Shown here in pieces: positions 53,773-57,590 of a stretch of 64,000 nt of DNA. Origin of the DNA: an uncultured Oscillospiraceae bacterium (lineage in GTDB: Bacteria; Bacillota; Clostridia; Oscillospirales; Ruminococcaceae); NCBI GenBank assembly GCA_934462925.1, contig CAKSIT010000008.1, forward strand, positions 62,001-126,000, written 5' to 3'. The position numbers and the translations under genes were made by a program. Under the pieces are notes generated by a model that saw nothing but the letters and a program-made list of their open reading frames with translations, searched no databases and was not told where the DNA came from. Position 1 is the stretch's first letter. The number at the start of each line of letters is the position of its first letter.

Positions 53773-53801
53773 TTGACATAAGCGGCGGTTTGTGGTATAC
53801 T
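53773..53801 (+). promoter_or_regulatory. Promoter of the flavodoxin-like gene pair
   Basis: TTGACA (53773-53778), 17 bp, TATACT (53796-53801); divergent from the ilvBN promoter about 90 bp away. Confidence 0.8.
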
Positions 53802-53830
53802 ATAAAAAAAGACGTTTCGGAGGGACTGCC

Positions 53831-54475
53831 ATGGACGAGCGCAGCACGACCGAGCGCGCTAAGACCTATATAGACGCGCTTGCAAGGGGAATAGACCCGC
53901 TCACGGGGCATACCCTGCCCGAGGGCGACATTGTTAACAATGTGCGCATTTCGCGGTGCTTGTTTTACGTGTCGGGTATTCTCGCGCGGGTGCTTGAGCA
54001 GGGCTTTCCGCAGGCGGGGGAATCTGCTCCTGCAGAGAGCGCTCCCCTCGCAGAGGAAACTCCCCTCGCAGAGGAAACTCCCCTCGCAGGGGACGCTCCC
54101 CGCAGGCGGGCGAAAAAGGCGGCGTTTTTCCTTACGGACAGCCAGCGCAGCACGCTTGCAGCGTGCGAGGACAGCTTGTTTGCGCGGGATATCGCCGCGC
54201 AGCTCAGCCGCTTTGCGGACGAGAACAAAACGCGCGGCTTTGCGGCGGCGTGGATATCCGCATGGCTTACGGCGGAGGGCTTTATGGAGCAGACCGAGCA
54301 GGGAAAGCGCGCAACGGAACTCGGCGCGGAGCTTGGCATAGAAACCCTGCAGCGCGAACACGCCGACGGCACGCCGTATCTTGTGAACAAGTACAACACG
54401 CAGGCGCAGCAGTTTATTCTTGACAACTTTGACGTTATAGTGGCGTTTAAGGCAAAGAGAAAGGAACAGTCATGA
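53831..54475 (+). CDS. Hypothetical protein with LAEETP tandem repeats
   Basis: 214 residues from ATG 53831, behind GGAGGGAC. N-terminal 55 residues (DALARGIDPLTGHTLPEGD, VNNVRISRCLFYVSGILARV) and a C-terminal domain with TPYLVNKYNTQAQQFILDNF look globular; between them an 18-bp DNA repeat (about 54040-54095) encodes LAEETP two to three times. The middle FLTDSQRSTLAACEDSLFAR could be a helical domain. No family recognised. It overlaps the next gene by 4 nt (ATGA). Confidence 0.65.
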   Translation: MDERSTTERAKTYIDALARGIDPLTGHTLPEGDIVNNVRISRCLFYVSGILARVLEQGFPQAGESAPAESAPLAEETPLAEETPLAGDAPRRRAKKAAFFLTDSQRSTLAACEDSLFARDIAAQLSRFADENKTRGFAAAWISAWLTAEGFMEQTEQGKRATELGAELGIETLQREHADGTPYLVNKYNTQAQQFILDNFDVIVAFKAKRKEQS

Positions 54476-54954
54476 TACCTATAATATACGAAAGCCGGAC
54501 GGACCACGCCCGCAGGTACGCGGAACTTCTCGCAAAGCGGCTTGGGGGAGAGGCCATGAGCCTTAAGCAGGCGAAAAAAGCCGTCGGAAGGGGCAGCGGC
54601 GTTGTGTTTATCGGCTGGGTGTTCGCAAACCGGATAATCGGCTATTCCGCAGCGCGGCGGCGCTGGGACGTTAAGGCAGTGTGCGCGGTGGGAATGTTCC
54701 CCGAGTGCGAGGCGAACACAGCCGCCCTCACCGAAAAGAACAAGCCTGACTGCCCACTGTTCTATCTTCGCGGGGGAATCGACCCCTCGCGGCTCACGGG
54801 GCTGCGCAGAAAGCTTATCTCGCTTGTGCGCGAGGACCTGATTCGCGAGGGCAAGCCCGAAAACAGGGCGCTCGCCGAGCTTCTCGCAACGGGCGCGGAC
54901 TTTGTGAGCGAGGAGGCGCTGTCGCAGCTTGCGGCGTTCTGCCTTGCGCTTTAA
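54472..54954 (+). CDS. Flavodoxin-like domain protein
   Basis: 160 residues, overlapping the previous gene by ATGA. The start IIYESRTDHARRYAELLAKRL matches the FMN phosphate loop region of flavodoxins (usually G-T/S-x-T-G-x-T), though here it reads ESRTDHA, and VVFIGWVFANRIIGY fits the second FMN loop. It may bind FMN or be a relative that has lost it. Redox role likely; partner unknown. Confidence 0.65.
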   Translation: MIPIIYESRTDHARRYAELLAKRLGGEAMSLKQAKKAVGRGSGVVFIGWVFANRIIGYSAARRRWDVKAVCAVGMFPECEANTAALTEKNKPDCPLFYLRGGIDPSRLTGLRRKLISLVREDLIREGKPENRALAELLATGADFVSEEALSQLAAFCLAL

Positions 54955-54960
54955 GCAAAT

Positions 54961-54992
54961 ATCGGGGGCTGAATTTTCAGCCCCCGATTTTT
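54961..54992. terminator. Terminator between convergent genes
   Basis: ATCGGGGGCTGAA (54961-54973) pairs with TTCAGCCCCCGAT (54976-54988), then TTTTT. The hairpin overlaps the last codons of the minus-strand GTPase gene. Confidence 0.9.
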
Positions 54993-57532
54993 AATTTGTC
55001 GATAAGCTTTCGTATCTGCCGCTCCACGTCCTCTACCTCCGCAAGGAACTCCGCCGCGGAAACGCGCATTGCGCCGCCGCCTAGGATTATCACCTGCTCC
55101 AGCCCGTCGGACGTTGCAACGCGAACGCGCGAATCGCGCGCAAGCTCGTGTACCGCCTTTTCGATGTACATATCAGCGGTTTCCGCTTCTTTGGTGTACA
55201 CAACGCTTATGCCGCCTGTCTGCTCCACCTCGCGGTGCGCGCCCTTTACCCTGTATGCGTCGAACACGAGTATAACGCGGCAGCGCCTGAAGCCCTGATA
55301 GTTGCACAGGATATCCGTAAGGCGTGCGCGCGCCGCGTCAAGGCTGTGCTTTGCAAGCTGCGAAAGCTCCTCCCACGCGAAAATGATGTTGTAGCCGTCA
55401 ACAAGCAGGTATTCAGGCCCTTTTGGCGGCAGCGGGAGCTTGCGCGGCTTCGGCTCTGTGCGGTGTTCGGTGCGCATGGCGGTGTATTCGCGGCGCTGTA
55501 TTTTGCCGTAGGTGCGCTCGAATATCTCCATAAGCTCCTTGTCGGTGGCTTCGCGCTTTGGGGGCGGCGGTACGTCCGCAGGGGAGCGCTCCGCGCGTTC
55601 CGCACCGAAGCGAATGCCGCTGTCCGCGTGCATACGCGCGGGGGCTTCGTTCCACTTTACAAGCACGCCCGCCCCGTGCGAGCAGAACACGCTGTCCGCG
55701 GGGTTGTCCGTGTCCGCCTCAAAGCGGTAGCCCGTGCGCGCTATTACCTCCTCGGCGTTGTGGCAGGGGAAATATCCCGCAGGAACGCAGGACAGCCGCC
55801 CGCGCCCCTTTGTGTACGCCGCCTGCACCGCCTGATAGCCCCTGAGTTCGCTTACGGGGGCTGTTCCGCTGATAACGGCGCTTTCAGAGCCGTTTCGCGG
55901 CGGGTTAAACTCCGCGCCCATGCGCTGCAAATCCGTCATGGCGCGCCCCACGCACTCGAGCGGCAGCTCCAGCGCAAACGAATAGAACGGCTCGAGCAGC
56001 ACGGACTGCGCGCTTGCAAGCCCCTGTCTTACCGCGCGGTAGGTCGCCTGACGGAAGTCGCCGCCCTCCGTGTGCTTTACGTGCGCGCGCCCCGCGACTA
56101 CGGTTATCGTCATGTCGGTTATGGGCGAGCCTGTAAGCACGCCGAGGTGCTGCTTTTCCGCAAGGTGGGTGAGAATTAGCCGCTGCCAGTTTATATCGAG
56201 GTCGTCCTTGCGGCAGTCGCAGCGGAAGTGAAGCCCGCTGCCGCGCTCCGCAGGCTCAAGCAGCAGGTGGACTTCCGCATAGTGGCGCAGCGGCTCGTAA
56301 TGCCCCATGCCGAGGACGGGCGCGGCAATTGTTTCCTTGTAGGCTATGCTGCCCTCGTCAAAGCCCACATCCAGCCCAAAGCGCTTTTCGATAAGGCTGC
56401 GCAGTATTTCAAGCTGTATTTCGCCCATAATGCTTACGTGTATCTCGCGCAGCTGCTCCGACCACGTAATGCGCAGCATCGGGTCTTCCTCCTCGAGCCT
56501 GCGCAGCTTTGAGAGCGCGTCGTTCACGTCCGCGCCCTGCGGGAGAATGAGCCTGTAGGCCATAACGGGTTCAAGCAGCGGCGGCGCGGACTGCTCCTGC
56601 GCGCCAAGACCCTGCCCCGCATACGTGCGCGTAAGCCCTGTTACGGCGCACAGCGTGCCTGCGGGCGCTTCTTCAACGGTTGTGAACTTTGCGCCCGAAT
56701 ACACGCGTATCTGCCCTGCCTTTTCGTCGGGCGCGGAGCTGTCGGGGGCGCTTCTCACGCGCAGCGCGCCGCCGCATATCTTCATATGCGTGAGCCGCGC
56801 GCCGTTCTCGTCGGGCGTTATCTTGTACACCCGCGCGCCGAACTCCTGCGGGCGCGGCGGCTCGTCCGCAAACTCCCCGAGCAGCCCCAGCAGCTCGTCT
56901 ATGCCCTTTAGCTTAAGCGCCGACCCGAACGCCGCAGGGAACACCCTGCACGCGGATATCGCCGCGCGCACCGCCTCGCGCGGAACGTCGCCGCTTTCAA
57001 GGAACGCGTTCATGCAGCGCTCGTCGCACTCGGCGGTCTGCTCGGCTATCTGCTCCCACGGCTGCGAAAAGTCAATACACCCGCCGCCGAGCCTGCGCCG
57101 CAGCGCTTCGATAAGCTCACCGCGCTGAAAGGGGGAGATGTCCATTTTGTTGACGAAAATAAACGTAGGCACGCTGTAGCGCCTGAGCAGCCGCCATAGC
57201 GTTTCGGTGTGGCTTTGTACGCCGTCCGTGCCGCTTATTACAAGCACCGCGCAGTCTATAACGGACAGCGCGCGCTCCGCCTCGGCTGAAAAATCCACGT
57301 GTCCCGGGGTGTCGAGCAGGGTATATTCGCCCTCGGGCAGGTGCATTACCGCCTGCTTTGAGAATATGGTTATCCCCCTGCGGCGCTCCAGCGGGTCTGT
57401 GTCGAGAAAGGCGTCGCCGTGGTCTACGCGCCCCTGCTTTCGTATATCGCCCGCGCGCAGCAGCAGCGCCTCGGCAAGCGTGGTTTTGCCGGAGTCTACG
57501 TGAGCCGTAAGCCCTACCACAAGCCTTTTCAT
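54977..57532 (-). CDS. TetM/EF-G-like ribosomal GTPase fused to a Rae1/YacP-type NYN endoribonuclease
   Basis: 851 residues from ATG 57532, behind AAGGGGG. Residues 1 to about 640 form a translational GTPase of the ribosome-protection group: G1 AHVDSGKTT (10-18), RRRGITI (about 50-56), G3 DTPGH (74-78), G4 NKMD (128-131), then EF-G-like domains II-V. Residues 706-840 are a YacP/Rae1 NYN nuclease: LLVDGYNIIFAW, LVFDAYRVKG, YTKEAETADMYIEK, VATSDGLEQ, GGGAMRVSAAEFLAEV; the Asp residues that line the active site in this family are all kept. In Bacillus, Rae1 is a separate protein that enters the ribosomal A site and cuts mRNA. A 60-residue Pro-rich linker joins the parts. It should not be read as proof of tetracycline resistance. 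Confidence 0.9.
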   Translation of the reverse strand: MKRLVVGLTAHVDSGKTTLAEALLLRAGDIRKQGRVDHGDAFLDTDPLERRRGITIFSKQAVMHLPEGEYTLLDTPGHVDFSAEAERALSVIDCAVLVISGTDGVQSHTETLWRLLRRYSVPTFIFVNKMDISPFQRGELIEALRRRLGGGCIDFSQPWEQIAEQTAECDERCMNAFLESGDVPREAVRAAISACRVFPAAFGSALKLKGIDELLGLLGEFADEPPRPQEFGARVYKITPDENGARLTHMKICGGALRVRSAPDSSAPDEKAGQIRVYSGAKFTTVEEAPAGTLCAVTGLTRTYAGQGLGAQEQSAPPLLEPVMAYRLILPQGADVNDALSKLRRLEEEDPMLRITWSEQLREIHVSIMGEIQLEILRSLIEKRFGLDVGFDEGSIAYKETIAAPVLGMGHYEPLRHYAEVHLLLEPAERGSGLHFRCDCRKDDLDINWQRLILTHLAEKQHLGVLTGSPITDMTITVVAGRAHVKHTEGGDFRQATYRAVRQGLASAQSVLLEPFYSFALELPLECVGRAMTDLQRMGAEFNPPRNGSESAVISGTAPVSELRGYQAVQAAYTKGRGRLSCVPAGYFPCHNAEEVIARTGYRFEADTDNPADSVFCSHGAGVLVKWNEAPARMHADSGIRFGAERAERSPADVPPPPKREATDKELMEIFERTYGKIQRREYTAMRTEHRTEPKPRKLPLPPKGPEYLLVDGYNIIFAWEELSQLAKHSLDAARARLTDILCNYQGFRRCRVILVFDAYRVKGAHREVEQTGGISVVYTKEAETADMYIEKAVHELARDSRVRVATSDGLEQVIILGGGAMRVSAAEFLAEVEDVERQIRKLIDKLKIGG

Positions 57533-57590
57533 GCCGCGCCCCCTTTCCACAGAAATACCGCTGCGGGAGTGTTCCGCGCAGCGGCGAATG

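Follow-up and report, generated by a model that had tools for sequence, protein, structure and literature searches.

We analyzed a gene on the minus strand of the window, that is, the whole 64,000-nucleotide stretch of DNA from an uncultured Oscillospiraceae bacterium (assembly GCA_934462925.1, contig CAKSIT010000008.1, positions 62,001 to 126,000). Its product of 851 amino acids combines an EF2-type translational GTPase with a nuclease of the YacP/Rae1 type. The gene and the parts of its product are as follows.

54977..57532, minus strand: whole gene, EF2-type translational GTPase fused to a YacP/Rae1 NYN nuclease, 851 amino acids
57539..57546, minus strand: likely ribosome-binding site AAAGGGGG 5' of the ATG, found by eye
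56876..57523, minus strand: G domain, residues 4-219 (Pfam and alignment)
56615..56842, minus strand: EF-G domain II, residues 231-306 (Pfam, slightly under the cut-off)
56363..56569, minus strand: EF-G domain III, residues 322-390 (Pfam)
56006..56353, minus strand: EF-G domain IV, residues 394-509 (Pfam)
56279..56311, minus strand: tip loop I of domain IV, GxGH[YF]EPLxHY, residues 408-418 (alignment)
56045..56089, minus strand: tip loop III of domain IV, HxKHTxGGDFR, within residues 482-496 (alignment)
55757..56002, minus strand: EF-G domain V, residues 511-592 (Pfam)
55628..55774, minus strand: C-terminal module of the GTPase, residues 587-635 (alignment)
55412..55627, minus strand: linker, residues 636-707 (alignment and structure model)
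54995..55411, minus strand: NYN_YacP (Rae1-type) nuclease, residues 708-846 (Pfam, PDB match and alignment)

By the open reading frame (ORF), the gene starts with the ATG at 57532 and stops at 54977; an alternative in-frame GTG at 57550 would add six residues. The sequence-only reading, made before any profile search, had described a GTPase and a C-terminal YacP/Rae1 NYN nuclease fused in a single frame, and the Pfam matches agree, with the GTPase at residues 4-592 and NYN at 709-846. They comprise GTP_EFTU (residues 4-219, E-value 6e-46), EF-G_D2 (231-306, 24.6 bits, slightly below the 27-bit cut-off), EFG_III (322-390), EFG_IV (394-509) and EFG_C (511-592). Domains II-V stand in the EF-G order according to Pfam, the structure model and the fold search. 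The EF-G fold of the GTPase part is supported by the structure model and by fold searches, which returned EF-G-like chains and bear on this part, not on NYN. For the C-terminal part, the profile PF05991 proposed as a check returned NYN_YacP at residues 709-846 (E-value 2.5e-50, 171 bits against a cut-off of 24.6). This part also aligns at ~1e-28 with residues 3-142 of the solved YacP chains 5MQ8 and 5MQ9, which we take to be Rae1/YacP of Bacillus subtilis. The linker is mostly of low confidence in the structure model and includes a helix (residues 664-675) that the alignment places in fused proteins only.

Both parts are matched in all 120 database relatives among the matches listed (7999 scored) and in all of the best 80 of 591 confirmed genome-contig loci, 51 of these best 80 being Oscillospiraceae by record name. 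Because the relatives match along both parts, a chance or assembly join is excluded. We aligned 120 fused proteins, some of them near copies, namely the window's own, 77 from the 80 loci (the ORF script missed L016, L045 and L080, which are left out), 40 from genomes and two from plasmid records. In this alignment the G motifs are complete and the NYN aspartates are kept, as the sequence-only reading had stated. Residues K16, T17, T55, D74, H78, N128 and D131 are invariant in all 120 fused proteins, and the G1-G4 motifs with the catalytic histidine (K16, T17, D74, G77, H78, N128, K129, D131) are complete in the 120 fused and in all 21 unfused members of the GTPase family. Among the NYN residues, D712, D758, D787 and E791 are present in 120/120 fused proteins and D809 in 119/120.

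Two tip loops of domain IV characterize the family. The GxGH[YF]EPL part of loop I is invariant in the 120 fused and 21 unfused rows. In loop III (HxKHTxGGDFR), the residues K, H, T, G, G, D, F and R are found in 120/120 fused proteins and the first H in 119/120, and two positions vary in one of the 21 unfused rows. The C-terminal module of the GTPase contains C590 and C617, present in all 141 fused and unfused rows, and H635, present in 140 of them; these conserved residues make a putative metal site possible. The unfused members are ~41-50% identical to the GTPase half and stop directly after this module.

The distribution of fused and free Rae1 was analyzed in 293 Clostridia genomes, sampled from the class to which G006 belongs (genome of locus L019, Ruminococcus flavefaciens), free and fused forms being assigned by open-frame length. 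NYN_YacP scored above its cut-off in 193 genomes, of which 90 carry the free form only, 96 the fused form only, six a fused-type gene that is interrupted or split between contigs, and one (G265) both forms. A 342-residue frame in G267 without a GTPase match was counted among the free, and second matches in G121, G171 and G200 are fragments below the cut-off. The GTPase was found at an E-value of 1e-60 or better in all 103 fused-type genomes, and it is in frame with NYN in all 26 intact ones checked; GTPase and NYN lie on separate contigs in G153 and G154. Genomes that carry the fused form and lack a separate Rae1, a count suggested by the sequence-only reading, amount to 102 of the 103 fused-type genomes in the census and to 12 of 12 in a separate check; the latter includes G012, where the contig of a second match, a 360-residue frame, has 1366 of 2237 25-mers in common with the fused locus of this genome. 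Replacement of Rae1 by the fusion, near one-for-one, is thus well supported. An unfused GTPase was found in 15 of the 90 free-Rae1 genomes, Tet-like matches of 32-38% in G130, G020, G206, G175, G228 and G288 being excluded from the unfused-GTPase counts. Additional matches include a second partial one to the GTPase family at a contig edge in G070 and separate Tet-like ones (30-33%) in G204, G245 and G233. The reading frame of the fused-type gene is broken in G052, G149 and G184, through error or decay.

The site of the free gene is recognizable in some genomes where the gene itself is missing. We examined 28 of the 91 free genes, mostly the best-scoring ones, for gene order and for their C-terminal tails (G265 was looked at apart, and L154 was not recovered). 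By sequence motif, rlmB lies upstream of free rae1 in 24 of the 28 loci, sigH downstream in 25, and both in 22; a stricter motif, relaxed after the neighbours had been inspected, had given 19 and 23 for the upstream rlmB and the downstream sigH, respectively. A sigH-like gene was detected in 37 of 40 fused-form genomes, and 30 of these loci were fetched, 28 of them readable. NYN is present in none of the 28 readable loci, and in 12 of them rlmB is directly upstream of sigH with no NYN between, the gap being 59-335 bases in 11 loci and 570 in one. Both RlmB and SigH scored above the NCBI cut-offs in all five of these 12 loci that were scanned, and the SigH proteins of the 12 are 76-81% identical to the query. 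The reverse search, from 30 rlmB loci of fused-form genomes, gave a downstream sigH in only two. The genome with both forms, G265, has rlmB, rae1 and sigH in a row (rlmB and sigH confirmed by NCBIfam) in addition to the fusion, and looks like an intermediate state. A small RNase III-like gene, identified by eye and without an NCBIfam match at 1e-10, adjoins rlmB in this genome. The fused gene in the window is outside the rlmB-rae1-sigH order, its upstream neighbours being AcpS-like and DUF6106 genes.

The fused nucleases also lack a C-terminal feature of free Rae1. All 28 free proteins share a tail of the form [LFIM]-[EDNQ]-x-hydrophobic-R about 155 residues past the first catalytic aspartate, a pattern drawn after the tails had been seen. 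At least 145 residues past this aspartate the motif occurs in none of the 120 fused proteins, including that of the window; 78 of them are too short to reach residue 155 past it, and four match this loose pattern elsewhere in their last 28 residues. An R166P variant of B. subtilis Rae1 was isolated and interpreted by its authors as a loss of function (PMC6613710). This arginine is inside the tail motif, provided that the chain numbering of 5MQ8 and 5MQ9 follows the gene. We infer that the tail is a docking or folding aid of free Rae1 whose role has been taken over by the GTPase.

The sequence-only reading had called the GTPase TetM/EF-G-like. The likeness is upheld for the fold; kinship with TetM is not. 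The GTPase half is 26, 25 and 27% identical to TetM, TetO and TetW, respectively, and 29% identical to the one EF-G compared. With the NCBI general tetracycline-protection model (tet_protect), whose cut-off is 775 bits, it scores 351, and with the TetM/W/O/S model (cut-off 1100) it scores 218, while the TetM control reaches 877 and 1339. In a quick tree the fused and unfused members form a single clade with SH-aLRT (approximate likelihood ratio test) support of 100, apart from seven Tet-type rows, which group at 94, below the tool's mark of 95, with a single EF-G outgroup on a long branch. Both tip motifs are absent from the TetM, TetO, TetW and EF-G rows compared: loop III is HxKHTxGGDFR in the family, YSPVSTPADFR in TetM and YHDVDSSELAF in EF-G, so that the Ser-Pro-Val of TetM is replaced by HxKHT. 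Membership in TetM is ruled out by the tet-model scores, the tree, the identities and loop III. Judged by its sequence, the GTPase is an EF-G/EF2-type family of its own, distinct from TetM. The further statement that database entries tend to be labelled as tetracycline resistance holds for some of them; others read 'translation factor GTPase family protein'.

With respect to the origin of the fusion, the fused GTPases group together at 99 in the tree, with one unfused Ligilactobacillus plasmid gene inside. That gene (L209:3001-4920, Ligilactobacillus salivarius plasmid NZ_CP047413.1) is ~48% identical, labelled as TetM/TetW/TetO/TetS resistance and adjoined by rpsN (S14); it may have lost its nuclease. 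The fused NYN domains likewise group together, with one free row, L114. Constraining them to a single clade gave a better likelihood than the free search and was not rejected (p-AU of 0.93 in the approximately unbiased test). L114, from G201, is a free Rae1 without rlmB or sigH beside it, placed among the fused NYN domains with weak support; G201 also carries an unfused GTPase, and L114 is possibly a split fusion or a pre-fusion state. One fusion and one later loss fit best, short of proof. In this scenario an EF-G/EF2-family GTPase would have gained the Rae1 NYN, probably once, and the free rae1 would have been lost afterwards.

Factors of the EF-G type insert their domain IV into the ribosomal A site. 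Domain IV of TetM is likewise placed in the A site (PMC7456112), and Rae1 of B. subtilis is an endonuclease that cuts messenger RNA (mRNA) in the A site (PMC12320835, PMC6613710). We propose, with a probability of roughly 0.58, that the fusion takes the place of Rae1 in these Clostridia and that its GTPase brings the nuclease to the ribosome. Ribosome binding, A-site cleavage, GTP coupling and the order of events are what we infer here. The GTP form of the GTPase would bind ribosomes with a free A site, its own domain IV tip reaching the decoding region. GTP hydrolysis would withdraw domain IV, and the nuclease, held by a flexible linker of ~70 residues, would then enter the A site and cut the mRNA there. 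Any docking role of the lost Rae1 tail would pass to the GTPase. More tentatively, at somewhat less than even odds, this domain arrangement may represent a GTP-driven mRNA-cutting factor, in which a GTPase with its own tip selects ribosomes and hands the mRNA to an on-board nuclease. It would be a bacterial counterpart, in a single protein, of RNA decay coupled to the ribosome and an ordinary cell factor in about one third (103/293) of the sampled Clostridia, partly hidden under a resistance label.

Several observations weigh against this proposal. Domain IV and a docked Rae1 would compete for the A site; because both cannot occupy it together, either the two take turns there or the nuclease works at another place. 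NYN_YacP is absent in 100 of the 293 genomes, and the GTPase is found unfused in seven of these 100 vs 15 of the 90 free-Rae1 genomes, so it has its own task with no strict tie to Rae1. Since the Ligilactobacillus gene without a nuclease lies inside the fused clade, the nuclease can also be dropped. The old gene order is not visible in 16 of the 28 readable sigH loci, which have other genes upstream of sigH, nor in the window's own nearest relatives, and the 12 rlmB-sigH loci may record few losses because they are possibly close kin. The tail pattern is not an accepted Rae1 criterion, and R166P may act by mere unfolding of a helix. Finally, the fusion has no conserved neighbourhood, the commonest neighbour families occurring in 10 of 76 usable loci (81 given). 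A tie of the GTPase to Rae1 in trans was also considered and is not clear from the counts of 15/90 and 7/100.

Two other explanations concern the task of the nuclease. The chain may hold two uncoupled functions, the GTPase being an EF-G-like factor with a separate task and Rae1 sharing only its expression or level. In line with this view, the GTPase occurs by itself, in seven genomes with no nuclease, and the linker is of low confidence; the loss of the tail motif in 120/120 fusions and the fusion-only linker helix suggest instead a mutual adaptation of the parts, and we consider the view unlikely. The protein could also be a factor of ribosome assembly or of ribosomal and transfer RNA (rRNA and tRNA) processing, in which nascent subunits would be inspected or remodelled by the GTPase, with NYN as the RNA-trimming part. 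In agreement with this, free rae1 adjoins the rRNA methylase gene rlmB, and NYN_YacP was formerly proposed for rRNA and tRNA maturation, as cited in PMC4342817. However, PMC12320835 and PMC6613710 describe Rae1 as a nuclease acting on mRNA in the A site, and 100/293 genomes do without NYN_YacP; we regard such a role as quite improbable.

That the fusion is a tetracycline ribosomal protection protein to which an RNase has been added corresponds to the label of several entries and to an earlier suggestion: according to Atkinson 2015, Tet proteins of ten Clostridiales species gained a YacP-like NYN, and RNase-based resistance was suggested (PMC4342817). The tet-model scores, the identity to TetM (26%, vs 29% to EF-G) and the separate clade stand against it, as do the presence of one fusion per genome, in exchange for the free nuclease, and the plasmid data, in which two of 1268 matching records cover 80% of the fused protein. 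Loop III alone does not exclude resistance: Pro509 of TetM, in this loop, overlaps the drug (PMC7456112), and a S508A/P509A/V510A triple mutant of TetM remains active (PMC4750697). Taken together, we regard a resistance function as very improbable. A role in a defence system was rejected, the only indication being a weak match to the LeoA GTPase (E-value 0.0015).

In 10 of the 76 usable loci, the first or second gene on the 3' side of the fusion encodes a TrmO-type tRNA methyltransferase; this family ties with two other neighbour families, and its identity is by Pfam in L013 only (L013:10535-11188). In the window, the ORFs 54472-54954 and 53792-54475, both on the plus strand, adjoin each other and are convergent with the fused gene. 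Neither has a Pfam match at 0.001; by eye, the former looks flavodoxin-like. Two unannotated faecal 'Bacteriophage sp.' records (MT835563.1 and MT835514.1) hold near full-length relatives of the fusion, 56% and 47% identical, respectively, and may be bacterial contigs.

The fusion architecture was already known, since Atkinson 2015 reported it. What is new here is the genome census, the emptied rae1 site, the loss of the tail motif and the separation from TetM: we found no earlier mention of them, and no study on the function of the fused protein, in the literature searched, the main Rae1 papers being outside its coverage. If the proposal is true, about half (103/193) of the Rae1-type nucleases in the sampled Clostridia are physically joined to a translation factor, and this would give a direct handle on how a ribosome-dependent RNase finds the ribosomes to cut. 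Gut genomes would also be cleared of some false calls of tetracycline resistance, and attention would be drawn to an unstudied family of translational GTPases that exists also without the nuclease.

Compared with known systems, the fusion shares with Rae1/YacP of B. subtilis (PF05991) the NYN core with its acidic residues and the presence of one copy per genome, free form and fusion being all but mutually exclusive; in contrast to Rae1, it carries a GTPase, has no C-terminal tail motif and stands outside the rlmB-rae1-sigH order. With TetM, TetO and TetW it has in common an EF-G-like five-domain GTPase, and it differs from them in sequence (25-27% identity), clade, domain IV tip, C-terminal end and sub-cut-off tet scores. 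Relative to EF-G/EF2 (29% identity to the one EF-G compared), the distinguishing features are its own tip loops, the extra C-terminal module and the nuclease. In eukaryotes, Hbs1/Ski7 is related to translational GTPases and connects stalled ribosomes with the decay of RNA; its GTPase, however, is of the EF1A type rather than the EF2 type, and its nuclease is a separate complex.
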